Origin: Opitutaceae bacterium
GTDB lineage: Bacteria > Verrucomicrobiota > Verrucomicrobiia > Opitutales > Opitutaceae
Assembly (NCBI GenBank): GCA_023269585.1
Contig: JAHFTC010000002.1
Span: 41,058 to 105,057 of the forward strand
Length of the DNA stretch: 64,000 bases
Direction: 5' to 3'
Shown here: positions 12,332 through 33,737 of the stretch, piece after piece
Layout: every line of letters begins with the position of its first letter
Position numbering within the stretch: position 1 is the first letter of the stretch
Program-made: the position numbers and the translations under genes
Notes under the pieces: model-generated
What the model saw: the letters and a program-made list of their open reading frames with translations, nothing else
Database searches by the model: none
Told to the model about the DNA's origin: nothing

Positions 12332-12352
12332 GTTGGGATCAGAAGAATGCGG

Positions 12353-13060
12353 TTAGTGGCTGTGACCGCCGCCTTTGGTGAGGCGCAGTTCGGTGAGCCA
12401 GAGTTGTTCGACGGCGGTCGTGGCGACCACGTCGCCGACGTAGAGACCGTCGAGGATCTCGATGTATTCGCCGTCGCTGGCACCGGGCTGTACCGGGGTA
12501 CGCAGCAGATTCGCGCCGTTGACGACATAGACGTAGGCGCCGGTTGATGTCCGCAGCAGGGCCGCACGCGGAACCGCGACATTCTGGCGAGTCAGGCCCC
12601 GCAAGATCAGGTTGACCGCCGTGCCAACCGCCGGCGTGCCGGGCAAGGCGAGTACGATTTCAACCTGATTCAGCGCGGGCAACAGCTCGCGGCGGACCGC
12701 GAGAAGCGTGGCGCCGCTCGGCGGGTTGGACTCCAACTCGTCGGCGAGTTCAACGGGGACGAGCGAGATCGCCCTGGCAGGCGGGCCGGCATCGAATACG
12801 GAGGCAGTGACCTCATAAGTGTGGGCGACGGGGCGCTCCTCGATCTCGGCCGTCTTCACGCCAATTGCGGCAGCAGTCTCGGCCGCGAGTAGCAGGCCCT
12901 GGCCCTCTTTGAATTTCGCGGGCGCTTCATCTTCCTGATGCGCAGATTCGCCTTCGTCGTGGCCCGCGTGCTCATCGGACGACTGCGACTTGCCACAACC
13001 GGACAACGCCAGAAGGGCCGCCACTGGAAGGACGATCAATATAAGTGAGGATCGGCTCAT
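12353..13060 (-). CDS. compact RND periplasmic adaptor (CzcB-like)
   Basis: Lipobox LLALSGCG, His/Asp-rich DEHAGHDEGESAHQEDE, C-terminal adaptor-like VAVPRAALLRTSTGAYVYVVNG...GLYVGDVVATT. Confidence 0.72.
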   Translation of the reverse strand: MSRSSLILIVLPVAALLALSGCGKSQSSDEHAGHDEGESAHQEDEAPAKFKEGQGLLLAAETAAAIGVKTAEIEERPVAHTYEVTASVFDAGPPARAISLVPVELADELESNPPSGATLLAVRRELLPALNQVEIVLALPGTPAVGTAVNLILRGLTRQNVAVPRAALLRTSTGAYVYVVNGANLLRTPVQPGASDGEYIEILDGLYVGDVVATTAVEQLWLTELRLTKGGGHSH

Positions 13061-17202: not shown

Positions 17203-18579
17203 CTATTGCGATGCTCGCCGCGGCTTTCTCAGCCTGGTCCGGGATGGGCCGGCGTTCTCGGCGGGCAGAGGGACCTCAATCCGGCGCCTCTTTTCGACGT
17301 AGTGGGCGGAAGTTGTGCTGATGTCCCGGTGACCGAGATGCTGACGCGCAGCTTCGATTCCGAAGGCGGAAGCCACGAGCGATCCTGACTCCTTGCGGAG
17401 GGCGTGAACGGCTTTGCGTTGCTTAATCCCTTTCTCCTTCAGCCAGGCCTGCAACTGCCGCCAGGTACGATCAGCTCGGTAATAGCCGTAAGTTGCCGTT
17501 GGATTCGAGTCTCCGCCTTCCAGCACGAATTCCGAGGTGCTGCCCTTCATGTAGCCGCGCAACACGTCGAGAGCTCCAGGCGCAAGATCGACCGTGCGCT
17601 GGCTTTCCTCCGTCTTGGGCTCGAAATGGGCGGTGCGGCGAATGTGAATCTGCCGGGCCTGGAAATCGATCTGCGCCCACGTCAATGTATCCGCCTCCTT
17701 GCGCCGCAACCCGCCCCAGAGACAGAGGACAAGGGCCAGATATTGCTGCGGATTGGCCTTTCGCAGTTCCCGGGCTGCGCAGGCCAGCAGCCATTCCGGG
17801 TTGATGTCCGAATGGTAGCGCTGCGGGCCCGGGTCCTTGATCTTCACTCCGGCGAATGGAGTCGGCGGCAGCGGGACCTTGAGCACCCTGAGCACATCCG
17901 GAGAAAAGAGCGCCCGGGAGCAGCGCAGAAACGACGCCGCCGAGCGTTCCGCCGATTTCCGCGCAATGGGATCGGCCGCAGCCCTAGCCGTGTATTCATT
18001 CCTCCAAGCGGCAAGCGACTCAGGCGTGAGCAGCGAGAGCGATTGGTCGTCCACCTTCTTCAGCCAGGCTTTGTGTCCGCCATTCACGTGGTCGTACTTC
18101 GCCCGCAACGCCTTCCCCTTCAATCCGGCATCCACCTTGGCGAGATCGGCCATGATCCGCCGCAGCATCCCCGAGTAGCGGCGCACTGTGATCGGTCGGA
18201 GGTGACCGCGTTTTCCGACATCGGCGAGGAACTCGCCGAGGGTGCAAACCGAGGCCTTGAATTGCACACTCGGCTTGTACTTGGCCAAGGTCGCCGGCCA
18301 ACCGGCAGCGACAAGGGAGAGAAAGATGTCGCGCGCCTTGGCCGCCGCGGCGGCTTGGTTGGCCGTCTCAAGGTTGAACCAAGCTTCCTTCCCGAGATGG
18401 AACATCCGCACCTGCCACTCGGGAATGATCACGATCCTGCCATCACGATCCTGATACTGGCGCTGCTTCAACCGCGGTTTCCAGTAGTCCTGATGTGTCC
18501 GTGCCGCGCGTACAGCGCTGTCAGCGGGATTTGTCTGTCCGGTTTCTGTCCGGTTTTGGAAGTCCTCGGAAGTCTTCAT
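17203..18579 (-). CDS. site-specific tyrosine recombinase (phage-type integrase)
   Basis: Catalytic signatures LWGGLRRKEADTLTW, HALRKESGSLV, ARQHLGHRDISTTSAHYVE; start chosen at MKTSEDF, the ORF extends to 18666. Confidence 0.88.
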   Translation of the reverse strand: MKTSEDFQNRTETGQTNPADSAVRAARTHQDYWKPRLKQRQYQDRDGRIVIIPEWQVRMFHLGKEAWFNLETANQAAAAAKARDIFLSLVAAGWPATLAKYKPSVQFKASVCTLGEFLADVGKRGHLRPITVRRYSGMLRRIMADLAKVDAGLKGKALRAKYDHVNGGHKAWLKKVDDQSLSLLTPESLAAWRNEYTARAAADPIARKSAERSAASFLRCSRALFSPDVLRVLKVPLPPTPFAGVKIKDPGPQRYHSDINPEWLLACAARELRKANPQQYLALVLCLWGGLRRKEADTLTWAQIDFQARQIHIRRTAHFEPKTEESQRTVDLAPGALDVLRGYMKGSTSEFVLEGGDSNPTATYGYYRADRTWRQLQAWLKEKGIKQRKAVHALRKESGSLVASAFGIEAARQHLGHRDISTTSAHYVEKRRRIEVPLPAENAGPSRTRLRKPRRASQ

Positions 18580-18940: not shown

Positions 18941-18961
18941 GGGTAGCACTACACCCCATGG
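18941..18961 (+). promoter_or_regulatory. stress-cluster motif copy 1 (gggtagcactacaccccatgg)
   Basis: GGGTA-N7-ACCCCATGG about 80 bp upstream of the PRC-barrel gene. Confidence 0.55.
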
Positions 18962-19041
18962 CGACGCCTGCCGTTTCACGGCATTGTGGCGCAAAGAGCG
19001 CGAGGCTCTTTGCAACGCAACCAACCACTGAAAGGGAAGCT

Positions 19042-20262
19042 ATGACACGAACAATTCTCACTCTCATCGGAGCGTCCGCGCTCGCGGTTCTGCCGGTCCC
19101 TGTTCTGGCCGGCACCGCGGCAGCTCAGCCAACCGACCTCACTTCGCCACACCAACAGTCCATGGCCACGGCGAGCAAATCGGCCAAGACCAGCGATCTG
19201 ATCGGAACGGAAGTACACAACTACCAGGATGAAAAGCTCGGGAAGGTGGTAGACCTGGCGGTCGACGTCGAATCGGGACGTCTCGTGCAGGTCATTCTAT
19301 CCTCCGGCGGATTCGCGGGGATCGGAGGGACGCTGTACGCGGTGCCCCCGAGTGCGCTCCACTATGACACCACCAAGACCGTTGTTCGTCTGGATGCGGA
19401 CGCGGCGAAGGTGAAGGCGGCGCCGGAATTCGAGATGTCCAAGTGGAATGATTCGTTCGATGCCGCCCATCTCGCGAAAGCCTCCAACCACTACGGCGCA
19501 ACCAAAGCGCGCGAGAACGACACGGCCAAGGGGATCGCAGGAGCCCCCACCAGCGACAAGGAAAGGTCCTCCGCGATGCCAGCCCGTCGCGACGGCCAGT
19601 TCCAGAAGGCGAGCAAACTGGTGGGCATGCAGGTGGAGAACCTACAAGGGGACAAATTGGGCGACGTGAACAACTTGCTGGTCAATCTTTCGACCGGCCG
19701 GGTTGTCGCGGTGGTCGTTTCAAGCGGTGGTTTCCTTGGAATCTCGGATGAGTTGAGCGCGCTGCCGCCCTCCGCTCTACGCTTCAGCCAAGACCGTGAG
19801 AGCCTTCAACTGGACGCCACCAAGGAGTCCTTGGCGGGGGCACCGCACTTCAAATCAACCCAATGGCCGGACTTCGACCAGCCCGGCTATGCCGCGGCCC
19901 TCACGCAGTCCTTCCGCGGTGATTCCTACGCCCGGCCCGTCGCGCCCCAGGAGCCGGACAATACGGCGCGCAACGTTCGCGATCGGGACGACAAATCCCT
20001 CACCCCGTTGGACCAGGGTAATGGGAAGGCGGATGTGGATCTCAGCGCACGGATCCGCAAGGAGATCATGGCCTCCGATCGCCTGTCGACGAACGGCAAG
20101 AACGTGAAAGTGATCACCCGCGACGCCCATGTGACTCTCCGCGGTCCGACCGATTCCGCCGAGGAGAAACGCCTCATCGGAGAGATCGCCGGCCGCATCG
20201 CTGGCGCCGGGAACGTCGACAACCAGTTGGAGGTGAAATCCACCTCCGCAGCTAGCCTGTAA
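19042..20262 (+). CDS. secreted protein with two PRC-barrel domains and a C-terminal BON domain
   Basis: Two repeats (SDLIGTEVHNYQDEKLGKVVDLAVD; SKLVGMQVENLQGDKLGDVNNLLV) then BON-like DLSARIRKEIMASDRLSTNGKNVKVITRDAHVTLRG. Confidence 0.85.
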   Translation: MTRTILTLIGASALAVLPVPVLAGTAAAQPTDLTSPHQQSMATASKSAKTSDLIGTEVHNYQDEKLGKVVDLAVDVESGRLVQVILSSGGFAGIGGTLYAVPPSALHYDTTKTVVRLDADAAKVKAAPEFEMSKWNDSFDAAHLAKASNHYGATKARENDTAKGIAGAPTSDKERSSAMPARRDGQFQKASKLVGMQVENLQGDKLGDVNNLLVNLSTGRVVAVVVSSGGFLGISDELSALPPSALRFSQDRESLQLDATKESLAGAPHFKSTQWPDFDQPGYAAALTQSFRGDSYARPVAPQEPDNTARNVRDRDDKSLTPLDQGNGKADVDLSARIRKEIMASDRLSTNGKNVKVITRDAHVTLRGPTDSAEEKRLIGEIAGRIAGAGNVDNQLEVKSTSAASL

Positions 20263-20299
20263 ACCACGCAACCCAACACGAAAAAGAACCACCACTACC

Positions 20300-20887
20300 A
20301 TGGCAAAGAAATCAGTATTCTGCATCGCAGCCACCGCCGCCCAGGCGGACTACATCGTCGATCAACTCAAGTCGGCGGACTTCTCCAACAATGACATCTC
20401 CGTGCTGTTTCCCGACAAGGGGACCACGCGGGATTTCGCCCATGAGAAGAACACCAAAGCTCCGGAAGGGGCGATCACCGGCGTGGGCGCGGGCGGGATG
20501 GTCGGCGGTGCCCTGGGTTGGATCGCCGGCATCGGGGCACTGGCTATTCCGGGCGTCGGCCCGTTCATTGCCGCCGGTCCGATCATCGCCGCGTTGAGCG
20601 GCGCCGCAATCGGCGCCACCGTCGGCGGTATCGCGGGCGGCCTGATCGGGATGGGTATCCCGGAACTGGAGGCCAAGCGCTACGAAGGCAAGATTCGGTC
20701 GGGCAACATCCTCATCGCCGTCCACGCGGAGGACTCCGACGAGGTCAAGCGGGCGCGCGACATCTTCACGCAAGCCCACGCGGAAGACATCTCCACGACC
20801 GGAGCGGCGGCGACCGTGCAGGATGCGAAAGCGACCCCCGCGACACCGGCACCCGCCTATGACACGCGCCGCGGCTTGAAGGAGTGA
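20300..20887 (+). CDS. glycine-zipper membrane stress protein
   Basis: N-terminal ferredoxin-like FCIAATAAQADYIVDQLKSADFSNNDISVLF then GAGGMVGGALGWIAGIGAL...GAAIGATVGGIAGGLIG. Confidence 0.7.
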   Translation: MAKKSVFCIAATAAQADYIVDQLKSADFSNNDISVLFPDKGTTRDFAHEKNTKAPEGAITGVGAGGMVGGALGWIAGIGALAIPGVGPFIAAGPIIAALSGAAIGATVGGIAGGLIGMGIPELEAKRYEGKIRSGNILIAVHAEDSDEVKRARDIFTQAHAEDISTTGAAATVQDAKATPATPAPAYDTRRGLKE

Positions 20888-21128
20888 CGCCCGCGTAATC
20901 AGCACTGCGTTACAAACGGAACCACTAGCCGGCGATCCCACATCGCCGGCTAATTCTTGCCTACCTCCCCATCGGAAACCGCAAGCTCCCGGCCAGCGCG
21001 TCGGCTTCACGGCGTGCCACTGAGCAGCCCACTGGGCGGGCGCCAGGCTTCGTGCCGGCCGAATCGACAACGGAGGCCCCGACCCGGCCTTGGGACAACT
21101 CCTCTCGATCCCGAAAACCCGAAACAGC

Positions 21129-21341
21129 ATGACAAACCCTCCAGCCACTATCACGTTCTTCAACACGCCTTCTCCCGTCCCGGCGCCGGTCGCTACCGCC
21201 TGCGAATTAGTCCGCCGAGAACTCCAGAAGCTTCGCACCGGAGACGGCCCCTTACGATCGCGCAAGCACGCCATTGCGGTCGGGCTTGCGACCGCGCGCC
21301 GCATGGAAAGAGCCGGTCGCCTTGCGCTCGGCGTCCACTGA
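21129..21341 (+). CDS. small conserved protein with SRKxAIAxGLxxAR motif (DUF6496-like)
   Basis: VRRELQKLRTGDGPLRSRKHAIAVGLATARR. Confidence 0.5.
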   Translation: MTNPPATITFFNTPSPVPAPVATACELVRRELQKLRTGDGPLRSRKHAIAVGLATARRMERAGRLALGVH

Positions 21342-21462
21342 CTGTCGGCCCGACAAGGCGTCGCTGGAACTTCGTGCCGCCGTCGCCGGCGCCGAAGAGC
21401 ACAGCGCACCCGAGGCGGTCCGCGCGCCGAAGATGGGGAGGCCCGCCGCCGGAGCCATGGGC

Positions 21463-23181
21463 CTACCCCCGGGCCAGCACCCCGGCCAGAACCTCGAGCA
21501 TTTTCGCGGTATCAAAAGGCTTGGTCAGAGCGGCGTCGAAGCCGAGGCGGAGGTGCTCAGCGACCGAGGGATCGTTGGCATAACCGCTCATGAGGATGGC
21601 CTTTACCCGGGGGTTGATCTGCCGGAGCGCAGGAAGAGCCTCAATCGCCCCCATGCCATCGCGTATCGTAAGATCCAGGAGCACAGCGTCGAAGGGCCGC
21701 CCCTGGCTTTTCGCCGCGCCAAAGGCGGCGATTGCCCGCTCGCCATCCGCCACTTCCTCAACCTCATGCCCGATCGCGCGAAGCGTCCGTCCGCAAATGA
21801 CCCGCAGCGCCGCCTCGTCGTCCATCACCAGAATCTTCCGCTGGGCCTGTAGGTTCCACCGGGCGGGAGTCGTCGGATTCGAGGCCGGCTCCGTGGCGGC
21901 CGGCAGATAGAGCTCGAAAGTGCTACCCTCCCCCAAGACCGATTGCGCCTGAATCGCGCCGCCGTGTTTCTGGATGATGGTGTGGCAGATCGTGAGCCCC
22001 AGCCCCATCCCTTTGCGGCTGTCCCGTTGCTTCGTGGAGAAATAGGGATCGAAGATTTTGGACAGATCCTCCCGCGAAATGCCCACGCCGTGATCGACGA
22101 TGCTCACGCGAACGAATCCCCCGGGGGGCAGACTGGGCATGGTGCTGGTCCGGCGGTCCACGTTCGCCGCGCTCACGGTGATCACCCCGCCGGCGGGCAA
22201 CGCCTCCCGCGCATTCAACACGATGTTACGCACGACCTGGCCGATCTGGCCACTATCGGCCGTCACCAGCCAGAGATTGTCGGCCACGGAAATCTCCGCG
22301 CGCACCCGCGAGCCACTTAACGCCAGCCGAACCGACTCGTGGATCAGGGTCGGCAGAGCGACCGTTTGCAGGATGGGCGCGCCGCCTTGGGCGAAGGTGA
22401 GCAGTTGTTGGGTCAACCCACTCGCGAGAAACGCCGTCCTCTTCGCCTCATCCAAGAAACGGATTCCTTCGTGAGTTGCTGGGACCACCGTCCGGGCCAT
22501 GTCCAGGTTCAGGATGAGGCCGGCGAGCAGGTTGTTGAAATCATGGGCGATGCCGCCGGCCAGAATCCCGGTGGACTCCAGCTTGCTGAGAATCAGCTGG
22601 TTCTCGGTGGCGCGCTTTCGTTCGGAGATGTCGGTCAGCACAACTTGGCATTCCTTGCCCGAACGCGACGCGGTCCCCTCCAGCTCGACCTCGAGCGGAG
22701 ACTTCCCGTCCCGCAGCAGCGCTACCTCCCAGCGCTCCCGTGATTTGTTGTCGAACACCAGCTCAAGGAAGCCGTTCAGCGCGAGCCGGTCGTCGGGCTG
22801 GAGGAACAGAGCGAAGCGCCGGCCGAGCAAAGCCGACCGGGCGCCCCCCAGCAGCTCGGTCCCGGCCACGTTGATCTCTTGAATGGTTCCCGCCCGGTCG
22901 AGGCTCATGTATCCGATCGGTGCGAACTCGTAGAGTTCGGTGATCTTCGCCAGAGCCGCTTCCAGCTCGAGCTTGGACTGAGTCAGGGCCGCATTCTGGG
23001 TTTCCAGCTCGGACTGCTGGTGCTCCAGCTCAATCTGGTGGATCTCCAATTCCTGGATCAGGCGGAGGTGCTCCGGATCGAGACATGGAGACCTCCCGGT
23101 GGTCTGACGAGCCTGCCACGAGGCTTCAGCCTGACGTCGGAGTTGTCCTGAGTTATTTGGGTCCGGCACCGATTTTGACAT
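21463..23181 (-). CDS. hybrid sensor histidine kinase (PAS - HisKA/HATPase - receiver)
   Basis: GGIAHDFNNLLAGLI H-box, NIVLNAREAL N-box, KGMGLGLTICHTIIQKHGG G-box, C-terminal receiver KILVMDDEAALRVI...DAVLLDLTIRDGMG. Confidence 0.9.
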   Translation of the reverse strand: MSKSVPDPNNSGQLRRQAEASWQARQTTGRSPCLDPEHLRLIQELEIHQIELEHQQSELETQNAALTQSKLELEAALAKITELYEFAPIGYMSLDRAGTIQEINVAGTELLGGARSALLGRRFALFLQPDDRLALNGFLELVFDNKSRERWEVALLRDGKSPLEVELEGTASRSGKECQVVLTDISERKRATENQLILSKLESTGILAGGIAHDFNNLLAGLILNLDMARTVVPATHEGIRFLDEAKRTAFLASGLTQQLLTFAQGGAPILQTVALPTLIHESVRLALSGSRVRAEISVADNLWLVTADSGQIGQVVRNIVLNAREALPAGGVITVSAANVDRRTSTMPSLPPGGFVRVSIVDHGVGISREDLSKIFDPYFSTKQRDSRKGMGLGLTICHTIIQKHGGAIQAQSVLGEGSTFELYLPAATEPASNPTTPARWNLQAQRKILVMDDEAALRVICGRTLRAIGHEVEEVADGERAIAAFGAAKSQGRPFDAVLLDLTIRDGMGAIEALPALRQINPRVKAILMSGYANDPSVAEHLRLGFDAALTKPFDTAKMLEVLAGVLARG

Positions 23182-23321
23182 GATGGATTGGCCTGCGCTA
23201 CACGACCTCGGGGCGCTCTGGCAGCTCGGTCGCAACCCTAGGCTTCTTCCGAGAACCGAGGTGGATTGAGGCCTGGATGCTTGTTTCTTCACCCGGACGA
23301 TAGACTCCGACCTCGAGAGGG

Positions 23322-23338
23322 CCAATGGGGTGTAATAC
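23322..23338 (-). promoter_or_regulatory. stress-cluster motif copy 2 (rc: gtattacaccccattgg)
   Basis: Oriented toward the histidine kinase gene; divergent with copy 3. Confidence 0.55.
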
Positions 23339-23413
23339 GTAGGCGCTTCCCTCGCCCCGACCCTGCACCGGTAGCCTCATGACTGCCCGGTCCGCGGATG
23401 ACCTTTCTTGGTT

Positions 23414-23427
23414 GGGTAAGACCCCAT
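23414..23427 (+). promoter_or_regulatory. stress-cluster motif copy 3 (gggtaagaccccat)
   Basis: Oriented toward the DUF892 gene. Confidence 0.6.
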
Positions 23428-23618
23428 AGAGCGCCGGACACTCCGCACGTATTATGGCGGCGTGAACCTGCTTGCCTCCACGCCTGAGGAAGAGCGCCGC
23501 ACGAACAACGCCTGGAGACAATCCACGCCTCATCCCGGTGGACGAGACGCCAACTACTCCCCGGAGGAACCACCCTGGCGCCTCCGGCTTTCCAAAGCAG
23601 CTCAAACACAGAAACAAC

Positions 23619-24170
23619 ATGAAGAAGATATCCACCCCTCGCGACCTCCTGGTCGAAGAACTCAAAGACCTCTACAGCGCGGAGAACCAATTGCTCAAGG
23701 CGCTCCCCAAGATGGCGGAAGCCGCCTCGAGCAATGAACTGCGCGAAGCTTTCGAAACCCATCTGGACCAGACCCAGATTCACGTCGAACGACTGAACCA
23801 AATCGGCGCGCAACTCGGAAAGTCCATGACCGGGAAGAAATGCAAAGCCATGGCCGGGCTGGTCGCGGAAGGCGCAGAGATCATGGAAGAGGATGCCGAA
23901 CCTGCCATGCTCGATTTGGCGCTCATCGGTTCAGCCCAGAAGGTCGAGCACTACGAAATCGCCGGCTATGGGACGACCCGGACCCTGGCCGAACTCGCGG
24001 AAGAACCCGCGATCGCCCAAATGCTTCAGACCACTCTCGATGAGGAGGGCGAAACCGACAAACTCCTGACGAAGATCGCCGCCGAGATGGATCTGGAAGC
24101 GGCGTACGAAGAAGAAGGCGAAACCGAGGTTACCGCTCAAGGAGGAGGCAAGAAGCGCCAGCGCAGCTAG
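23619..24170 (+). CDS. ferritin-like DUF892 (YciE/YciF family) protein
   Basis: TPRDLLVEELKDLYSAENQLLKALPKMAEAASSNELREAFETHLDQTQIHVERL; IGSAQKVEHYEIAGYGT. Confidence 0.92.
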   Translation: MKKISTPRDLLVEELKDLYSAENQLLKALPKMAEAASSNELREAFETHLDQTQIHVERLNQIGAQLGKSMTGKKCKAMAGLVAEGAEIMEEDAEPAMLDLALIGSAQKVEHYEIAGYGTTRTLAELAEEPAIAQMLQTTLDEEGETDKLLTKIAAEMDLEAAYEEEGETEVTAQGGGKKRQRS

Positions 24171-24890
24171 ACCAAACGGAACCGCCGCGGCGGAGAATAC
24201 CACTACGCCGCTCCGACTCCACATGTCCTTCGCGCTCCCTACTGAACCCCCGCATACACACCGCCATGAAAACAAGAAGCCCAAAGAAGTCGGCTAGTCG
24301 TCCCCCGAAACCACGGCACCAACCGGCGGTGAAGCAGTCGGCCGCCGCCCAACACCTGGGCGGTCAACCCGAGAATGATGACGATGCTCGAGCCGCCGGG
24401 TTTGAATCCGCAACGGCAACGGCTCCCTCCAAGCCTTCGGACGCTCGGACCGCTCCCACGCCTCGATAACTCCGTGGACTGACCCGAACGACGTTTCACG
24501 CCTTCTCCGTACCGGGTCGATCGCGACACCATTTCTCGACCGGGACTTCTGGCTCCAATCTTTCACGACGCGGCTTCGGCTGCGCACCTTGCCCATCTGG
24601 CTGACAATCCATTCGGGCGAATGCCCTCCCACACTGTGCGGATGTTGAGCATCGCGAGACTACGGTGGTCCTGATCGAGGCGCTCCAGCTACCGGGTTCC
24701 GTGAGAAGATCCACCCGGTGGCCGAGGGCATTGGGCTGATCGGTGCATTCAAAACCGCCCATCCGAAACAACTTGAAAGGAGACGGCGTGGCAACGGGTG
24801 GCCGGGACAACAGCGGAGCGGAAGGCCGGGCGAGAGGGGTGAATGCGTTGACGCCGCCCGCGCAGGCACCGCTGCCGCGCCCGAGCCCCG

Positions 24891-25217
24891 TTATTTGACG
24901 ACGATGTCGTTTTTCACGTCGGTCACGCCGGCGACCGTACCCGCCACGAGTGCTGCCTGCGCCTTCTCCTCGGGGGTGTTGACGAAGCCGCTGAGCTGCA
25001 CCACGCCCTTGAAGGTCTCCACGCTTACCTGAAGCGCCTTCACGAGAGGGTCCTTTACGAACGCGGCCTTGACCTTGAACGTGATGGAACTGTCGTCGAT
25101 GTATTCACCGGTACTTTCTCGGGTGGCCGTGGAAGCGCAACCGGCGGTGAAGGTAACAAAGCCGAGGGCGGCAGCGAGCAACGCCACAAGGGCAAGGGAG
25201 GGAACTGATGTCTTCAT
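24891..25217 (-). CDS. BON-domain lipoprotein
   Basis: Lipobox FTAGCAS; DDSSITFKVKAAFVKDPLVKALQVSVETFKGVVQLSGFVNTPEEKAQA. Confidence 0.87.
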   Translation of the reverse strand: MKTSVPSLALVALLAAALGFVTFTAGCASTATRESTGEYIDDSSITFKVKAAFVKDPLVKALQVSVETFKGVVQLSGFVNTPEEKAQAALVAGTVAGVTDVKNDIVVK

Positions 25218-25348
25218 GGTTGGTATGGTTGGGTGTTCTAACATCTACAGGGCATGAGCGGGAAAAGAGCGTCTCCAAATAATCGAGCAACTGGACAATG
25301 GGGGCGGTTGCGAAAGCGAGAACCAACCCCGGGGGGCGGCAGCGCGGC

Positions 25349-26098
25349 TCACGAGCAGGCGGCGAGAATCCCGCCCTTCGGGCGGACAGGACCGAACCAC
25401 TCCACGTGGCGTACGGCCGAGCGGAACTCCGGGCAGGTCTCGCTCATCAGGGTGCGCAGACTATCCCGAGCGCGAGCGATACGGCTTTTCACTGTGCCGA
25501 TGCTGATGCCCAGTTGCTGCGCGATTTCAGCGTACGAGCGGCGCTGGGTAACACGCATGGCAAGTATTTCTCGTTGCGGAGCGTCCAGACGAAGCATGCA
25601 CCGTGCAACGAGATCGGAGAATTCGCCGATCACGACCTCACGCGCCGGACCCACGGCATCGGTGGTTACTACGTCCGAGAAGGTCATCTCGCTCTCCCCG
25701 CCCACCGGGGAGTCGAGGGACACGCTCGCATGCCGGCAGCGGCGGTGGAAGTACCAGTAGCGGTTGCGTGAGAGATTGAGCGCGATGCGGTAGAGCCAAG
25801 TCGAGAGCGACGAGTCGCCGCGAAATCCCCCGAGGCCGCGGTGCGCACTGACGAACGTATCCTGGGCGATCTCCTCCGCGTCGGCGCAGTTTCGAAGCAC
25901 ACCGAAGGCCACCAGATACAGCCGTTCTCGGTAGCGTAGCATGATTGTGAGGAAGGCGGTTTCGTCCCCCGTATTGAAGCGGCGCACGAGTTCGGCATCA
26001 ATGATCGCATCGCTGCGCGAAGTTCGGGAACGCCGACGCCAGTCCGACTGGAACGGCAACGCTCCTGACGATGCGTACTGTGCGTTTTGAGTGACCAT
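25349..26098 (-). CDS. ECF-type RNA polymerase sigma factor
   Basis: Sigma2 YRERLYLVAFGVLRNCADAEEIAQDTFVSAHRGLGGFRGDSSLSTWLYRIALNLSRNRY; sigma4 LDAPQREILAMRVTQRRSYAEIAQQLGISIGTVKSRIARARDSLR. Confidence 0.92.
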   Translation of the reverse strand: MVTQNAQYASSGALPFQSDWRRRSRTSRSDAIIDAELVRRFNTGDETAFLTIMLRYRERLYLVAFGVLRNCADAEEIAQDTFVSAHRGLGGFRGDSSLSTWLYRIALNLSRNRYWYFHRRCRHASVSLDSPVGGESEMTFSDVVTTDAVGPAREVVIGEFSDLVARCMLRLDAPQREILAMRVTQRRSYAEIAQQLGISIGTVKSRIARARDSLRTLMSETCPEFRSAVRHVEWFGPVRPKGGILAACS

Positions 26099-26122
26099 GC
26101 TTCGGGCGGCCGTTGCTGCTGC

Positions 26123-26266
26123 TCAGCCGAGCGCTGAGTCTCCACGTGACTCGTACTGACCCACCCGCTCGGCGCCATGGGCTCCGCCGTGGGTGGCCGC
26201 GACCGCGCCGAATAGAAACCCCACAAAGGCGGCGAGGAAAAGAGCGACTGGTGCTAGGTTAATCAT
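26123..26266 (-). CDS. small membrane protein (47 aa) immediately upstream of the ECF sigma gene
   Basis: Hand-translated: MINLAPVALFLAAFVGFLFGAVAATHGGAHGAERVGQYESRGDSALG*; absent from the supplied ORF list (short); single TM helix. Confidence 0.5.
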   Translation of the reverse strand: MINLAPVALFLAAFVGFLFGAVAATHGGAHGAERVGQYESRGDSALG

Positions 26267-26472
26267 GACTACGAAGGTTGACTGTTTCTGGGCTTGTTTC
26301 CGGGGCCGGCGGGTGCTGCGGAGGCGATCGCGTCCGCCAATTTCGCGAGGTGAGTTCTGATGGGCGTTGTTCCGGAAAATCCCCGGTTGGGTTCCGCGTT
26401 CGGGTGAACCGAGATGACGATCGTTCGTCCGAACTGGTCTGCTCAGTATGCCCCCACGGCCCGGCGCTTGAT

Positions 26473-26491
26473 ATGGGGTCTAGGCCTACCC
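26473..26491 (-). promoter_or_regulatory. stress-cluster motif copy 4 (rc: gggtaggcctagaccccat)
   Basis: GGGTA-N7-ACCCCAT, same long-spacer form as copy 1; oriented toward the 47-aa ORF / ECF sigma gene. Confidence 0.5.
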
Positions 26492-26598
26492 GTCTCCGTT
26501 TGGCGGTGAAGCCCCAGGCGCCCTGGGGATTGTTTCACCAACGGCAGGGCCGTTCCAACCCAGTGCGGGACGCGTTGGTGCTTGGGAGCGAAACCCGC

Positions 26599-28284
26599 TC
26601 AGGGGTGGAAGTTCTTTCGGCTCCGATAGTCCGATACGAAGATGCTGATCACCAGCCAGAAGCTCCCCGCCGCCGCCGCCGTGAAGCAAAGGATCGCCAA
26701 TCCGGGATAGCCGAAGAGCCGGAACGAGCTCTCGACCCGCGCCAGCAGCGACGCGCCGACGATCAGACCGGCCAGCACGATGCCCATGGTGATGCGGTTT
26801 GCGATCTTCTGCATACCATCCATCGCCATCTTCGCGTCGGGGGCCTTCACTTTCACCTCCCACTCGGAGTTGGCGAACACATCCATGATCCGGTTGAGCC
26901 GGGCCGGAAACCCCGCCGCGAAATCCTTCACCTCGAGGAGCGTGCTGTAGACGCTGCCCTGCGTGAGATCGTTGCGCATCCGCTGCGCCATCAGGGTCGC
27001 GAGGTTGCGGCGGATCGAGGCGTTGGTATCGAACGCGGGATCGAGAATCCGCCCGACTTCGTCCAGTTGGAGCATGGTCTTGCCGAGCAGTACCATCTCG
27101 CTGGGGACAATGAGGCGGTTGTCCTGGGCGATCCTGCTCACCTCCAGGAGGGAGCGGCCGACATTGAGCTGCTCCAGTCCCTGATCCCGGCGCAGCGCCA
27201 CCAACTGGGTGATCCGTTGACGGAACCTCGGTGCGTCGAACTCCTCCATTTTCTCACTCATCCGGATCGCCGTTTCCGCGGCGGCCTCGCCATTGCCCTC
27301 GCTGATGGCGAGGAGGATCTTCAACAAATCCTCCTGCATCGCGGGTGCGGTGTGGCCCACCATCCCGAGATCGATGAGAGCGATACGTCCATCGCGCGTG
27401 ACGAAGACGTTGCCCGGATGCGGATCGGCATGGAAGAGCCCATCCACGAGCACCTGCTGCAGGTAGGCGCTGAACAACTCCTCGGCCAACGGGGCGCCCT
27501 TCAGGTCGAGCGGGGACAACGGCCCCAGGGCCGTGATCTTCTGCCCCTGCACTTCCTCCATCGTCAGGACCGAGCGGGTGCAATAGTCCATCACCGGCTG
27601 GGGCACTTGGATGAGTTTGAACTTCTGCAGATTCTTGCCCAGGGCGATAAGGTTGTGCGCCTCGCGCTCGTAGTTGAGCTCCTGCTGAATCACCAGGCGG
27701 AACTCCTGTAGAGTGACGAGGAAACGGTGACGGCGACCCAACGCTGTATGGGCGTCGAGGAGACCAGCAATCTGCTCCAGCACCTCGAAGTCCTCCGCGA
27801 TCTGGCGGCGAACGTTCGGGCGTTGCACCTTGACGACCACCGCCCGGCCATCCCGCAGCGCGCCGCGGTGCACCTGGCCGAGGGAAGCGGCGGCCAGTGG
27901 CTTCGGATCAAAGCGGGAGAATGCCTTCGAGATCCTGACCCCCAGTTCGGTCAGCACGATCTCCTCCACCTCGCCATAGGTGAACGGTTTCACCTTGTCC
28001 TGCAGACGGACGAGCGCTTGCCGATAGGCGTCAGGCAGCATATCGGGACGGCCGGCCAACACCTGCCCCAACTTCACGTAAGTCGGGCCCATCGTTTCCA
28101 GATCATCGGCGAGGTGTCCGGGCGACGGTTCGCGGCCGGTCACCGGCGACGCCCCGGTCGTCGTGGCTTCGCCCCCGAAGCCCGTGTCTGCGCTCATTGT
28201 CCGGGCCAGATCGGAGCGACCATATTTCCACAGCAGCGCGGCGATCTGCCGGTAGCGGGTGAGATGAGAGGCGCTTAGTTTCAT
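26599..28284 (-). CDS. AarF/UbiB/ABC1 family atypical kinase
   Basis: PTYVKLGQVLAGRPDMLP (KxGQ), AAASLGQVHRG, FHADPHPGNVFV; two C-terminal TM helices. Confidence 0.92.
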   Translation of the reverse strand: MKLSASHLTRYRQIAALLWKYGRSDLARTMSADTGFGGEATTTGASPVTGREPSPGHLADDLETMGPTYVKLGQVLAGRPDMLPDAYRQALVRLQDKVKPFTYGEVEEIVLTELGVRISKAFSRFDPKPLAAASLGQVHRGALRDGRAVVVKVQRPNVRRQIAEDFEVLEQIAGLLDAHTALGRRHRFLVTLQEFRLVIQQELNYEREAHNLIALGKNLQKFKLIQVPQPVMDYCTRSVLTMEEVQGQKITALGPLSPLDLKGAPLAEELFSAYLQQVLVDGLFHADPHPGNVFVTRDGRIALIDLGMVGHTAPAMQEDLLKILLAISEGNGEAAAETAIRMSEKMEEFDAPRFRQRITQLVALRRDQGLEQLNVGRSLLEVSRIAQDNRLIVPSEMVLLGKTMLQLDEVGRILDPAFDTNASIRRNLATLMAQRMRNDLTQGSVYSTLLEVKDFAAGFPARLNRIMDVFANSEWEVKVKAPDAKMAMDGMQKIANRITMGIVLAGLIVGASLLARVESSFRLFGYPGLAILCFTAAAAGSFWLVISIFVSDYRSRKNFHP

Positions 28285-28457
28285 TAGGGGAGGCGGGTGG
28301 CCGCCAAAATCCGCCGGCGGAGGCGGGCCCCGACCGTCGAGGCCACCTGGGCCGCCGCACCCGACGATCTGGTGTCATCCGAAGCCGAGCCCACGCGCTC
28401 TGGCGATGGCTATCGTCCGAGGCACGCTGCCAGCATGCGCTCCGGCGACTGCCCCCG

Positions 28458-28474
28458 CCATGGGGTGAGTACCC
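28458..28474 (-). promoter_or_regulatory. stress-cluster motif copy 5 (rc: gggtactcaccccatgg)
   Basis: Oriented toward the AarF gene; divergent with copy 6. Confidence 0.6.
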
Positions 28475-28489
28475 ACCGCGCCACACGGT

Positions 28490-28508
28490 AGGGCAAGACC
28501 CCATTGGG
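28490..28508 (+). promoter_or_regulatory. stress-cluster motif copy 6 (agggcaagaccccattggg)
   Basis: About 35 bp upstream of the Ohr start codon. Confidence 0.6.
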
Positions 28509-28541
28509 GGACTCCACCCTGCCCTGTAGCGTGGCCTCGAA

Positions 28542-28955
28542 ATGAAAACCATGTTCACGGCGGAGGCGACCTCCCGAGGCGGACGATCCGGAACCATCCA
28601 GACCCCGGGCGGACTGCTGGATATCACTTTGGGCAACCCGCTGGAGAAGGGCATCGAGCGACGCGGCCCCAACCCGGAACTGCTCTTCGCGGGCGCGTAT
28701 TCCGCCTGTTATCACAGCGCCTTGCTCGGCGCCGCCAAGAAGCGAGGCACGGCAACCAAGGACTCGACCGTGAGGGCGCTGGTGAGCCTAACCGAGGACG
28801 ACCACGGCGGCTTCCGCCTGGCGGTCGAGCTGCATGCGCACATCCCGGGACTCGACTCGCCACAAACCCAAAGCCTCATGGAGGAGGCCCACAACACGTG
28901 CCCGTACTCGAGAGCATTACGCGGCGAAACGTCCGTCACGCTGTGCGCAGACTAG
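28542..28955 (+). CDS. Ohr/OsmC-family organic hydroperoxide resistance protein
   Basis: ARGG-like N-terminus, NPELLFAGAYSACYHSAL (first Cys), EEAHNTCPYSRALRG (second Cys). Confidence 0.92.
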   Translation: MKTMFTAEATSRGGRSGTIQTPGGLLDITLGNPLEKGIERRGPNPELLFAGAYSACYHSALLGAAKKRGTATKDSTVRALVSLTEDDHGGFRLAVELHAHIPGLDSPQTQSLMEEAHNTCPYSRALRGETSVTLCAD

Positions 28956-29034
28956 CGACCACCGGCCCTCGCGACAGGTTCGGACCGACGGCCACTCGCC
29001 AGACCGCTGATCGTCGGCCATCCCCGCCCCTCCC

Positions 29035-29676
29035 ATGACCAGCACTACAATGAACCTTCGATCACCGGGCGACGCTGCCGATTCCCTGTCCGTGGTCTGC
29101 TTCGGCGCCTCCGCGGGGGGCTTCGAGGCGTATTGCACGATTCTCTCCCTCCTACCGGCGGACACGGGGATGGCCTACGTCATTGTTCATCACCAGCCGG
29201 CGGACGGAAAATCGCTTCTCGTCGAAATCCTCCCTCGTATGACAAAAATGCCCGTGGTGCTGGTGGCCGACGGGACGAATGTGAGCGCGAACCATGTCTA
29301 CGTAGTTCCAGCCGGGTTACAGGTAACCATGGATGGAGATTCCTTCCGGCTCACTCCCTTGGTCAAGCCGCCGGGGTGGCCCAAGAACATCTCGGTTTTC
29401 CTGCAATCGCTCGCGGAGAACCAACAGAAACGGGCGATCGCCGTCATCCTTTCCGGTTTCGACTCCGATGGATCGGCGGCGCTGAAATCGATCAAGGCAG
29501 CAGGCGGGCTGGTGTTTGCCCAGGCATTCCGAACGGCCCGGCAACCGGATATGCCGCAAAGCGCCGTGAGGACGGGGTGCGTCGACCGGCTGCTGTCGCC
29601 GACCGAGATCGCTGCGCAACTTGCACGCATCGGCGAGGAACGGCGCGGCTCCACCGCTGGACCGAGGGCTGGATGA
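29035..29676 (+). CDS. stand-alone CheB-type methylesterase domain protein
   Basis: FGASAGGFEA (Ser), IVHHQPADGKSLLVEILPRMTKMPVV (His), LSGFDSDGSAALKSIKAAGGLVFAQ; no receiver domain. Confidence 0.85.
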   Translation: MTSTTMNLRSPGDAADSLSVVCFGASAGGFEAYCTILSLLPADTGMAYVIVHHQPADGKSLLVEILPRMTKMPVVLVADGTNVSANHVYVVPAGLQVTMDGDSFRLTPLVKPPGWPKNISVFLQSLAENQQKRAIAVILSGFDSDGSAALKSIKAAGGLVFAQAFRTARQPDMPQSAVRTGCVDRLLSPTEIAAQLARIGEERRGSTAGPRAG

Positions 29677-29745
29677 ACAAACGGCTGCAGTCCATTTCGT
29701 GTTTGAACTTATAGCACAGTCTCGTCGTTCCCGAAGCCCAGGGTC

Positions 29746-29762
29746 GGGTAATGCCCCATGGG
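29746..29762 (+). promoter_or_regulatory. stress-cluster motif copy 7 (gggtaatgccccatggg)
   Basis: About 35 bp upstream of the small DUF3309-like gene. Confidence 0.6.
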
Positions 29763-29793
29763 CGAGTTCGCGAAGTTGGGCTATCGTGTAGCC

Positions 29794-29949
29794 ATGAACC
29801 TTCTTCTTCTCGTCCTCGTTCTGCTTCTCGTCTTCGGCGGCGGTGGTTTCTATTTCGGCGGTCCGGCCATCGGCGGCGGTGCACTCGGCTTGGTGCTGTT
29901 GATCGCTCTTGTGGTCTACTTCGTGGGCGGAAGACGCACCAAGGCATAA
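29794..29949 (+). CDS. DUF3309-like small membrane protein (51 aa)
   Basis: MNLLLLVLVLLLVFGGGGFYFGGPAIGGGALGLVLLIALVVYFVGGR. Confidence 0.7.
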   Translation: MNLLLLVLVLLLVFGGGGFYFGGPAIGGGALGLVLLIALVVYFVGGRRTKA

Positions 29950-30145
29950 CCGACCGCCGCCGTGAATCACGGTCTTCGGCCCTGCGCGCCCGCGGGGTTT
30001 CGCGGCTGATCACTCTTCGGTCCGACCTCGTCGTCATGCTTTCCTCGTGATCGCTTTCCATTGGCCAACCACGGATTGTGCAACGGACTCCGAGCGGTCT
30101 CGGATTTCCCCCACGAGCTAGACACCCTTCGCAATCTCGCCTTCC

Positions 30146-31699
30146 ATGAATACTCGCCCCGGACCTTCTACGTCGGTGTGGATGGCCACCGCCCAGCCGC
30201 CAGCCTATGCGAATCTCGACCGCAACGAGCGTGCCGATGTTTGCGTTGTCGGCGCCGGGATCGTCGGCTTGACCACCGCGTATCTCCTGGCGAAAGCCGG
30301 CAAAACCGTGGTCGTGCTCGAGGATGGGAGGATCGGATCGGGGGAGACCCAGCGGACGACCGCCCATCTCACCACCGCTCTCGACGAGCGCTACTTCAAC
30401 CTCGCGCGGCTGCATGGCGACGACGGGGCGCGCCTCGCGGCCGAAAGCCATACCGTGGCCATCGACACGATCGAGCGCATCGTTCGCGATGAAGAGATCG
30501 ACTGCGATTTCGAGCGAGTGGACGGCTACCTGTTCAACGCGCCCGGCGAACCGGACGGCCTGCTCGATCGCGAGTTGGCCGCGACGCATCGGGCCGGCCT
30601 GCTGGAAACCGCCTTGGTGGAGCGCGCACCGCTGCCGGCCTTCGACACCGGCCGGGCCCTGCGCTTCAGCCATCAGGCGCAGTTTCATCCGCTCAAGTAC
30701 CTGACTGCCCTCGCGGAGTGCGTCACCCGCCGCGGCGGGCGCATTTTCACGGGCACGCATGCCACCCTCATCGCCGGCGGTCACCCGGCCGGCGTCGAAA
30801 CCCGCGACGGCAACTCCGTGACCTGCGATGCGATCGTGGTGGCCACCAACACGCCGATCAACGACCGGCTCGTCATCCACACCAAACAGGCGGCCTACCG
30901 GACCTACGTGATCGGGATCGCCGTCCCGGCGGGGTCGGTGCCGAAAGCGTTGTATTGGGACACCGGTGATCCCTACCACTATCTGCGGCTCATTACCGCT
31001 GCGGCCGGCAGCCCGGCGCCGGCCCACGATCTGTTGATCGTCGGCGGCGAAGACCACAAGACCGGCCAGGACGAGGATGCGGACTTGCGCTACGGGCGGC
31101 TCATACACTGGACGCGCGAGCGTTTCGCCTTGGCCGGCGATATCCGCTTCCGCTGGTCGGGCCAGATCATGGAGCCGGTGGACGGACTCGCCTTCATCGG
31201 TCGCAACCCGCTGGATCAGGACAACGTCTATCTCGTGACCGGCGATTCCGGAAACGGAATGACGCACGGCACGATCGCCGGATTGCTGCTGACCGATCTC
31301 ATCACGGGCCGCGAGAATCCGTGGACCAAACTCTACAGTCCGTCGCGTGTATCGCTCGCCGCCACCGGCGAGTTTGCAAAGGAAGCGGCCAACATGGCGG
31401 TGCAGTACGTGGACTGGCTGACCCCCGGCAACGTGGAGCAGGCCGAACTCGTCCCGCCCGGCTCCGGCGCGATCGTGCGCGACGGGCTCGCCAAGATCGC
31501 GGCCTACCGCGAAGCCGACGGAACGCTCCACGAATGCTCCGCAGTGTGTCCGCACCTTGGGGCCATCGTGGCATGGAATCCCGCCGAGAAGACCTGGGAC
31601 TGCCCCGCGCACGGATCGCGCTTTGATTCTCGGGGGCGCGTCCTAAACGGGCCCGCCAACGTCGATCTGCCACCGGTCGCCGCCACGGCGCCCGCCTAG
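30146..31699 (+). CDS. FAD-dependent oxidoreductase with C-terminal Rieske [2Fe-2S] domain
   Basis: ADVCVVGAGIVGLTTAYLLAKAGKTVVVLED; Rieske CSAVCPHLGAIV...WDCPAHGSRFDSRGRV. Confidence 0.9.
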   Translation: MNTRPGPSTSVWMATAQPPAYANLDRNERADVCVVGAGIVGLTTAYLLAKAGKTVVVLEDGRIGSGETQRTTAHLTTALDERYFNLARLHGDDGARLAAESHTVAIDTIERIVRDEEIDCDFERVDGYLFNAPGEPDGLLDRELAATHRAGLLETALVERAPLPAFDTGRALRFSHQAQFHPLKYLTALAECVTRRGGRIFTGTHATLIAGGHPAGVETRDGNSVTCDAIVVATNTPINDRLVIHTKQAAYRTYVIGIAVPAGSVPKALYWDTGDPYHYLRLITAAAGSPAPAHDLLIVGGEDHKTGQDEDADLRYGRLIHWTRERFALAGDIRFRWSGQIMEPVDGLAFIGRNPLDQDNVYLVTGDSGNGMTHGTIAGLLLTDLITGRENPWTKLYSPSRVSLAATGEFAKEAANMAVQYVDWLTPGNVEQAELVPPGSGAIVRDGLAKIAAYREADGTLHECSAVCPHLGAIVAWNPAEKTWDCPAHGSRFDSRGRVLNGPANVDLPPVAATAPA

Positions 31700-31768
31700 G
31701 TTCTGCCGCGAGAAACGCACAGGTGGCTGACCATCCTGAGCACCATTCTGGTCACTGGTTTTCTCACC

Positions 31769-32269
31769 GTGGTGTTTCTCAATCTCCGGGCCGGCGAGAA
31801 ACAGATCCGCCACATCCTCGCCCACGAGTTGGCCGTCGAGCATCCCCAGTTTCTGCGCAGCATGGGAAATCTCCTCGGAGCAGGCCTTCTTCCGGGCAAC
31901 CGGGCGCCGGCGCTGCACAACGGTGCGCGGATCTTCGCCCTGCGTGCAAGTCGTGTATTGCGGAGCGCGCTACTCGATGCGGGCGTGGAGATCCACGAGT
32001 TCCAGCCGACGATGTACCATTGCAAGGTGCTGATTGTGGACGATGTCTGGGTGTCGGTGGGTTCGACCAATTTCGATGACCGGTCTTTCCGCCTGAACGA
32101 CGAGACCAACCTCAACAGCCACGATGCCGTTTTTGCGCGCGAACAGGTGCAGGTGTTCGAGGACGACAAGCGCAAGTCCCGCGCGATTACGCGCACGGAA
32201 CTGCGGGACCGGTCCGCCAGCGGCGAAACCCTCGACGCGATTGCCAGCACGATCCGGCGGCAGTTGTGA
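31769..32269 (+). pseudogene. internally deleted cardiolipin synthase / phospholipase D-like gene
   Basis: N-terminal TM segment and FLRSMGNLLG...PGNRAPALHNGARIF fused directly to the C-terminal HKD half ALRASRVLRSALLDAGVEIHEFQPTMYHCKVLIVDDVWVSVGSTNFDDRSFRLNDETNLN; the first HKD motif is absent. Confidence 0.7.
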
Positions 32270-32282
32270 GTCGGAGAGCGTC

Positions 32283-32300
32283 GGGTAACACCCCATTGGG
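32283..32300 (+). promoter_or_regulatory. stress-cluster motif copy 8 (gggtaacaccccattggg)
   Basis: About 105 bp upstream of the AI-2E-type transporter gene. Confidence 0.6.
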
Positions 32301-32317
32301 TGCGGGCAGCAACGGGG

Positions 32318-32404
32318 TTAGGATGCGAGCACCGTGACGGGGCAGTCCTTCACGGAAGCCACGCGCACCAACTCGCTCGAAATCGTCGCACTGTAACCAG
32401 CCAT
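32318..32404 (-). pseudogene. possible C-terminal remnant of a universal stress protein (UspA-like)
   Basis: Minus-strand translation MAGYSATISSELVRVASVKDCPVTVLAS* resembles the UspA tail (..S.xlvR.A.CPVlvl). Confidence 0.3.
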
Positions 32405-33617
32405 GCCGCACCGAACCACACTGGGGGCCAAGCCGCCGTCGATCGCCTTCTATGTACTGTTGGCTGCGGCCACCTTGATCTGCATCCAGGCCTTCTCGTT
32501 GCTGGCGCCGATTCTACTGTCGCTGCTACTCATCCTGCTCATTTCGCTCGCGCTCAATCCCGTGGTCTCGCGCCTGCGAGCCTTGACCGGGGGGAGAAGC
32601 GCCGCGACGGGCTTGGTCGCCGTCACCGTGTTGGCGATCATCGGAATGACCGGTTGGGCTTTCTACGGGCCGATGGCGGCCTCCGCCTCCCTGCTCTCGG
32701 AGAAGCTGCCCGCCTATTGGGAGCGGCTGCAGAAGCCGTTAATCAGAATGGAGCAACGAGCCGTGCTCTCCGAAGAAAAGCTCCAAGCGGAGGTATCCAC
32801 AGAAATCGCCGCAAGCACCTCGGCGGCGCCCGAGCCCAGAACCAAACCACGTCCCCGGCAACCTGCGCCACCTCCCCCCGCCGCGGAATCCGGATCGCTC
32901 CGCTCGAGTCTGGGCGGGATGCTCACGGGCGCCGTGGGGCAATTTTCGTCGGTGGCATTCAACGCGGCCGAGATCCTGGTGGTGTTGGTGACTGTGTTCT
33001 TCGGCGTGACGTTTACGCTGATGAATCCCCGCCCGGTCTTTGGCGCGATGTTTGCGCTTGTGCCCGAGCGCCACCATCCGCGCGCCCTGATCATCCTGCA
33101 GCGCACCACCCGGTTTATGCCCGGCTGGGCGGGGGCGACGCTGCTCGGAATGCTGTCGATCGGCCTGTTGGTTTTCCTGCTCATGTGGCCGATCCTCGGC
33201 TTCACGGACGCACTGGTCCTGGGACTGATCGCGGGCGTGCTGGAGGCGATCCCCTTCATCGGCCCAATTCTCAGCGCCGTGCCGGCCGTATTGCTCGCCA
33301 TCGGCCAGGGCGGGATGACTCCGCTGTGGGTAATCCTCGCCTACGTCGGCGTCCAGACCTTGGAGAACAATGTGATCGTCCCGCTCCTCGTGGCGCGCGG
33401 AATGAAACTGCATCCGTTGGCGGTGATTCTCTCGATGCTTCTTTGCGTGGCTGCGTTCGGGTTGCTGGGGGTGCTGATCGCGGCCCCGCTGGTCGCCGTC
33501 GTGACCATCGTGCACGACGAGCTCTATCGAAAACGTTTTCTCTCGACCGTCACGGACGCGGACTTGGATCGACTGGCCGGCCAGGCGCTCCATGAAAAGG
33601 CGGCCCGGACCACCTGA
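32403..33617 (+). CDS. AI-2E family transporter (PerM/YdiK-like)
   Basis: Multiple TM segments; LVLGLIAGVLEAIPFIGPILSAVPAVLLAI; NNVIVPLLVARGMKLHPLAVILSML. Confidence 0.9.
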   Translation: MPHRTTLGAKPPSIAFYVLLAAATLICIQAFSLLAPILLSLLLILLISLALNPVVSRLRALTGGRSAATGLVAVTVLAIIGMTGWAFYGPMAASASLLSEKLPAYWERLQKPLIRMEQRAVLSEEKLQAEVSTEIAASTSAAPEPRTKPRPRQPAPPPPAAESGSLRSSLGGMLTGAVGQFSSVAFNAAEILVVLVTVFFGVTFTLMNPRPVFGAMFALVPERHHPRALIILQRTTRFMPGWAGATLLGMLSIGLLVFLLMWPILGFTDALVLGLIAGVLEAIPFIGPILSAVPAVLLAIGQGGMTPLWVILAYVGVQTLENNVIVPLLVARGMKLHPLAVILSMLLCVAAFGLLGVLIAAPLVAVVTIVHDELYRKRFLSTVTDADLDRLAGQALHEKAARTT

Positions 33618-33661
33618 CCCGCCACGCGGACGGACTGGCGCTCCGCTTGCCGCCCCGAGAT

Positions 33662-33676
33662 AGGGTTCACCCCATC
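33662..33676 (+). promoter_or_regulatory. stress-cluster motif copy 9 (agggttcaccccatc), degenerate
   Basis: About 60 bp upstream of the small ORF at 33738. Confidence 0.45.
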
Positions 33677-33737
33677 TCACCGGTTGCCCCATTTGTATCC
33701 AACCTTCTGTCGCTTTCAAGCAAACGGCCAACCACCC

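Follow-up and report, generated by a model that had tools for sequence, protein, structure and literature searches.

A directional upstream motif as the putative activator half of a stress-gene promoter class in Opitutaceae and other Verrucomicrobiota

We analyzed a 64,000-nucleotide stretch of an Opitutaceae bacterium (the window; assembly GCA_023269585.1, contig JAHFTC010000002.1, positions 41,058 to 105,057; source genome G000), which carries a cluster of stress-related genes preceded by a short directional motif, [A/G]CCCCAT. The original prediction had described nine intergenic copies of this motif, and all nine listed sequences were found at their positions. Eight of them belong to one class, in which a −10-like hexamer of the form YANNNT starts exactly 22 bp past CCCCAT; the ninth does not. 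Based on its occurrence in this genome and its relatives, the motif very likely belongs to a rigid promoter class that marks a stress regulon phylum-wide, of which it is likely the upstream, activator half, and we name a candidate reader for it, a NarL/LuxR-type response regulator that we call RR-A.

For the eight sites, single coordinates such as 18953+ give the first base of RCCCCAT. Site 1 (18941..18987, plus strand; 18953+; −10 hexamer CATTGT) is predicted to drive a gene with PRC-barrel and BON domains (19042..20262, plus strand; PF05239 and PF04972), after which comes a YflT-like open reading frame (ORF) at 20300-20887 (PF11181, slightly below cutoff). Sites 2 and 3 lie back to back. Site 2 (23297..23343, minus strand; 23331-; TATCGT) would drive a CckA-like hybrid histidine kinase with PAS, HATPase, and REC domain matches (21463..23049, minus strand), whose start codon must lie below 23290 because the predicted transcription start is near that coordinate. 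Site 3 (23409..23455, plus strand; 23421+; TATTAT) faces the gene of a DUF892 ferritin-like stress protein (23619..24170, plus strand; PF05974). Site 4 (26445..26491, minus strand; 26479-; CATACT) precedes the gene of an extracytoplasmic function (ECF)-type sigma factor (25349..26098, minus strand), which is considered, and rejected, as a reader of the motif below. Sites 5 (28432..28478, minus strand; 28466-; CATGCT) and 6 (28486..28532, plus strand; 28498+; TAGCGT) are again back to back, the former pointing to an AarF/ABC1 gene (26599-28284) and the latter to Ohr (28542-28955), whose ATG is about 3 nt past the predicted start; a CheB-like gene follows Ohr (29035-29676). Site 7 (29741..29787, plus strand; 29753+; TATCGT) is a GCCCCAT variant upstream of a small membrane-type protein (29794-29949), and its predicted start coincides with the ATG, a leaderless prediction. 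Site 8 (32278..32324, plus strand; 32290+; TAGGAT) precedes an AI-2E family transporter (32403-33617). The remaining sequence in the original list (33662..33708, plus strand; 33662+) was rejected as a member, as it has no −10 at 22 bp and a matrix score of −3.1, compared with 21-34 for the eight accepted sites.

The fixed pairing of the two elements is what distinguishes these sites from chance matches. The pattern [AG]CCCCAT-N22-YANNNT occurred eight times in the window; 200 dinucleotide shuffles gave 0.145 on average and 2 at most. When spacers of 16-28 bp were scanned, all eight pairs fell at 22 bp and none at 16-21 or 23-28 bp. The short core ACCCCATNGG without the −10 was not enriched (16 found, 13.9 expected), so the significance of the motif derives from the fixed −10. 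A search with GGGTAN{1,12}CCCCATNGG was too strict and was dropped, returning two matches only. The YANNNT form was picked after inspecting the window sites, and the fair test is therefore the remainder of the genome. Across the 4.47 Mb of G000, ACCCCAT-N22-YANNNT matched 19 times and the reversed pattern not once; seven matches are the ACCCCAT sites of the window, one is elsewhere on the window's contig, and 11 are on other contigs. The claim that the window holds no further copies was right, yet 12 more ACCCCAT-type sites exist elsewhere in the genome, on contigs C103 (seven), C4 (two), C17, C87, and C200.

Beyond this genome, the strict pattern GGGYWASACCCCAT-N22-YANNNT was present in 87 of 250 genomes of the family and 42 of 388 genomes of the phylum, and the reversed control had 0 matches in every genome. 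The spread is patchy: G001, which shares the genus of G000, has no sites, and G002 has six. The motif is also found on contig JAIOPI010000010.1 (L030), from a metagenome-assembled genome (MAG) labelled Lentisphaerae.

The consensus built from 21 G000 sites, and then from 124 sites of several genomes, is approximately GGTcGGGTwAsACCCCATrg-N20-TAtNsT. The core ACCCCAT and, in the −10, the T at −7 and the A at −11 were set by the search pattern, so that their invariance is not independent evidence and only the flanks count as such. With positions taken relative to the first base of the core, these flanks are GGG (−7 to −5), T (−4), A/T (−3), A (−2), and C/G (−1). The T that starts the −10 hexamer also counts as independent; among the 124 sites, the first base is T in about 75% and the third base is T in about 49%. 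Taking the hexamer as −12 to −7, the element, approximately GGTCGGGTTACACCCCAT, covers about −52 to −35. At the position of a −35 hexamer (17-bp spacer), the sequence is degenerate, with a T plus a partial G only, and the spacer bases between CCCCAT and the −10 are otherwise unconserved among the G000 sites. The median distance between the predicted start and the downstream gene is 84 bp, and only seven of the 124 sites lie inside called genes, compared with 79% coding sequence, which bears out the claim that the sites point toward the next gene.

A conserved TATNNT-like −10 exactly 22 bp past ACCCCAT favors an activator site joined to a sigma-A-type promoter and places GGGTA...ACCCCAT at about −48 to −35. 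The likely layout, as predicted from these alignments, is a class II activator site, overlapping the −35, fused to such a promoter. The choice first offered for the motif, an operator or a bipartite alternative-sigma promoter, falls in favor of this layout. GGGTA is not constant, lying 5 bp upstream of its consensus position at 18941 and 26473; the usual upstream half is GGG[T/C][A/T]A[C/G]. The comparison of GGGTA to a SigB/SigF-type −10 is unsupported, since the actual −10 is found on the downstream side and a GTTT-type −35 is not conserved about 14 bp upstream; in the G000 alignment, no conserved columns were found further upstream than −12 relative to ACCCCAT. At a fair share of sites, the predicted starts fall 0-3 nt from the start codon, including 28532-28542 and 29787-29794, which suggests that the regulon includes leaderless or near-leaderless mRNAs, predicted, for example, for 28498+ and 29753+.

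Judging by the annotation of the downstream genes, most sites appear to drive small stress genes (PRC, BON, DUF892, Dps-like ferritin, Ohr, and CsbD-like). Outside the window, the G000 targets comprise DUF2934, a weak WXXGXW-type match, ferritin/Dps-like, and DUF883 plus holin-like genes, together with an omega-like (Rpb6) small protein, an entericidin-like peptide, a receiver-domain protein, and a collagen/OmpA protein. Targets in other genomes include BON, CsbD-like, DUF892, PRC-barrel, ferritin-like, ice-binding-like, glutathione-peroxidase-like, and aldehyde-dehydrogenase-like genes, some of them identified by sequence reading alone. With targets assessed in this way, the description of the motif as intergenic, directional, and the mark of a stress regulon was borne out both genome-wide and phylum-wide. 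The omega-like protein (L109:11490-11705, on contig C103 of G000) has 71 residues and matches RNA polymerase omega (Rpb6, E 2e-8), with a motif promoter before it and a hybrid kinase after it; it is possibly a stress-induced extra omega subunit.

In order to identify a reader, we clustered the genes near sites in ten genomes and on the MAG contigs L029 and L030. The only recurrent DNA-binding families were the ECF factor and RR-A, the latter encoded in G000 on contig 200 (37485-38159). RR-A has REC and GerE domains (PF00072, 2e-25; PF00196, 5e-19), and its closest solved relatives are VraR (2e-33), NarL (1e-31), and DevR (4e-30). In the family, 60 genomes have both motif and RR-A, 27 the motif only, 26 RR-A only, and 137 neither (odds ratio 11.7, P = 7e-17). 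Outside the family, RR-A was present in 24 of 30 motif-positive and 17 of 321 motif-negative genomes (24/6/17/304; odds ratio 71, P = 7e-21). As the genomes are related and these P values ignore shared ancestry, they are indicative only. Physical linkage is less exposed to this problem, and most genomes used for it were outside the matrix training set. In 20-kb windows around RR-A, there were 47 matrix-scored sites in 360 kb, distributed over 17 of 20 windows (19 genomes), whereas windows of this size around a paralogous LuxR regulator, from partly the same genomes, held 0 sites in 351 kb. Strict sites within 10 kb were found for 15 RR-A genes of the phylum sample, and for five of these genes the distance was 85-213 bp. 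The gene order kinase, RR-A, site, BON gene recurs in L248, L257, and L264; in L203 and L207, an ice-binding-like gene with a site comes after RR-A. A site is also found upstream of the RR-A gene cluster in G000 and G002. RR-A is, on balance, the activator that we predict from these sequences to read the sites.

RR-A is accompanied by a histidine kinase that may indicate its inputs. A HisKA_3 kinase (PF07730 and PF02518) adjoins RR-A in all six loci scanned and in L254. RsbU_N (PF08673) matched four of six partner kinases below threshold (E 5e-4 to 0.026), and a profile of 11 kinase N-termini searched against the PDB retrieved RsbU N-domain entries only, weakly (E 0.03-0.07). The N-domain is predicted to form a four-helix fold (pLDDT, the model's per-residue confidence score, 88), for which a fold search ranked KaiA C-domains at the top (template modelling (TM) score 0.61-0.66) and RsbU lower (0.50-0.52), with no match at E below 0.001. 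In L254 (G028:C218, 9810-15275), genes for STAS/RsbR-like, STAS, RsbT-like, and SpoIIE-phosphatase proteins, a PAS/GAF HisKA_3 kinase, and RR-A occur in one run, which is suggestive of a stressosome-like module feeding the two-component system. KaiC and/or KaiB homologs and a PAS/HisKA_3-type kinase stand beside RR-A in L253 (8186-11887; Kai calls by Pfam) and in L262 (8420-9843) and L030 (13210-16534; both by sequence reading). These neighbors, with the KaiA/RsbU-like kinase domain, hint at a Kai-type input to the RR-A system. Histidine kinases with RsbU N-domains are reported from stressosome operons of some Proteobacteria (PMC12143880), and for Vibrio vulnificus a link between a stressosome and two-component genes is reported (PMC9237108).

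Several observations weigh against RR-A and its proposed inputs. Of the 87 motif-positive family genomes, 27 have no close RR-A, and these include every one of the six sampled members of a genus called g2 (G003, G071, G099, G121, G140, and G157). The 98% complete G003 encodes just two LuxR-type proteins, of which one is the universal paralog and the other is unrelated, and its sites nonetheless precede the same kinds of genes (BON and PRC-barrel). A different or replaced regulator must then act in g2, or RR-A is not the binder; this exception is the main reason why we hold RR-A with measured rather than high confidence. The dyad symmetry of the site is imperfect: GGGT can pair with ACCC, but a symmetry scan did not choose this center, and a perfectly symmetric binding element is unsupported. 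The linkage of RR-A to sites may merely reflect its residence in stress islands, and the RsbU/KaiA-like label of the modeled kinase domain, drawn from sub-threshold matches, is a possible one.

One rival suggestion is that the same class II promoter is read by another activator, perhaps AraC-like or another LuxR-type protein, while RR-A is co-inherited in stress islands or acts upstream. Motif-bearing genomes devoid of RR-A, in g2 and elsewhere, and the short LuxR-type repertoire of G003 speak for it, as does the asymmetry of the site, which spans about 18 bp; an AraC-type monomer could also span an asymmetric site of this length. It is nevertheless somewhat unlikely, given that RR-A and the ECF factor are the only DNA-binding families that recur beside sites in the ten genomes and on L029/L030, and that windows around RR-A are strongly site-enriched while those around its paralog are empty. 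We looked for a second recurrent regulator beside the sites in g2 genomes and found none. The universal paralogous LuxR regulator itself (about 40% identity, beside a universal ECF gene) was rejected as the general reader because of its 0 sites in 351 kb, though it may yet serve in g2. Several g2 sites (in G003, G099, G121, and G140) have some letters of the 22-bp spacer in common (ATGGCAGCCAAGGCGGC-like), which looks like duplication together with their promoters, and at least two of the spacer-sharing sites precede small DUF2934-like ORFs. Such shared letters are what a dispersed repeat would leave, but a chance or repeat artifact is scarcely credible for the class as a whole, with unconserved spacers in G000, no control matches in 250 and 388 genomes, and 0.15 sites in shuffles against eight observed.

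Alternative sigma factors account for the layout far less well. In favor of a bipartite promoter of the cluster ECF factor, or of a SigB/SigF type, the ECF gene sits in the cluster with its own site upstream, and close relatives also have upstream sites in other genomes. However, regions 4 and 2 of a sigma factor contact elements 16-19 bp apart, and the gap between ECF −35 and −10 elements is about 16-17 bp; the 22 bp from CCCCAT to the −10 at all window sites is too long for this, and the −10 is sigma-A-like. Close ECF orthologs are also absent from the motif-rich G002, G003, G025, G052, and G056 and present in the motif-poor G004, G006, and G035, and among 37 genomes the association with the motif was weaker for ECF (odds ratio 3.6, P = 0.10) than for RR-A (odds ratio 20.9, P = 0.0003). 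We consider this reading very unlikely. The ECF factor at 25349-26098 was rejected as the motif reader since the distribution of its close orthologs does not follow that of the motif, and it is probably a regulon member rather than the reader. A heat-shock promoter of the sigma-32 type, in which CCCCAT would be the −10, is more improbable still. The −10 of E. coli sigma-32 does look like CCCCAT, but CTTGAAA is not conserved at the proper upstream distance. The conserved upstream sequence is GGGTWAS instead, and on the downstream side the sites have another A/T-rich box at a distance of exactly 22 bp.

If RR-A is indeed the activator, the pieces would assemble as follows. Stress signals from RsbT (the stressosome) or Kai-type partners would reach the N-terminal domain of the HisKA_3 kinase, which would phosphorylate RR-A. 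Phospho-RR-A would occupy the sites at about −52 to −35, substituting for a good −35 box, and would recruit RNA polymerase carrying the housekeeping sigma factor to stress genes scattered in islands. We put forward only tentatively the full chain, a phylum-wide general stress response that runs without a dedicated sigma factor from stressosome/Kai signals through kinase and RR-A to GGTCGGGTTACACCCCAT-N22-TANNNT promoters.

Parts of this system resemble known ones. Like LuxR at the lux box and CRP at class II sigma-70 promoters, it has a predicted directional activator site that covers a weak −35 and keeps a set distance from a sigma-A −10. What differs here is the GGTCGGGTTACACCCCAT sequence and the Verrucomicrobiota regulon, neither of which was found in the literature searched. 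RR-A shares REC and GerE domains and a HisKA_3 partner kinase with the NarL/FixJ regulators VraR, NarL, and DevR/DosR. DevR also runs a dormancy/stress regulon. Its box is GGGACT-type and that of NarL is TACYYMT, and the predicted RR-A site differs from both. The possible RsbU_N/KaiA-like input domain recalls the RsbU-dependent SigB response of Bacillus and the Vibrio vulnificus stressosome, as does the L254 run, an rsbR-S-T-X-like operon that includes a kinase and RR-A, and the DUF892, CsbD-like, and YflT-like targets are of types found in the SigB response. The predicted output differs, being a response regulator at sigma-A promoters and not a sigma factor controlled by partner switching. 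PhyR-EcfG of Alphaproteobacteria is likewise a stress regulon triggered by a response regulator, but EcfG promoters (GGAAC-N16-17-CGTT) use a dedicated sigma factor, and promoters of this type were not seen here.

General stress regulons have been described for Firmicutes, Actinobacteria, and Proteobacteria. Verrucomicrobiota are abundant in soil and water and poorly studied, and the system outlined here is a candidate for a general stress response in which no dedicated sigma factor takes part. Our search of the literature for the motif, for a Verrucomicrobia/Opitutaceae stress regulon, and for a CheB/CheR/PRC-barrel LuxR system, with most subscription papers outside its coverage, found no description. 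The sequence rule is exact enough (0 control matches in the 250- and 388-genome scans) that stress genes become predictable in any genome. The analysis also puts forward a candidate for the master regulator and suggests that a two-component system serves as the output of RsbU/Kai/stressosome inputs, which are usually tied to sigma factors or clocks.

A few further features of these loci were noted. Ice-binding-like (PF11999) genes adjoin RR-A with a site close upstream in L203 (1-690), L207 (4489-8200), and L261 (8689-9578), which suggests a cold or freezing role in some lineages. Rfam and tRNA scans returned nothing except a tRNA-Pro. In the window, a CusA/CzcA-type heavy-metal efflux transporter of the resistance-nodulation-division (RND) family (9161-12331) and a NodT-like outer membrane component (region 9161-14352) are separate from the regulon. 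The stress cluster directly adjoins two mobility genes, one for a DDE transposase (15142-16905) and one for a phage-type integrase (17203-18471), suggesting that the cluster may be, or may border, a genomic island.

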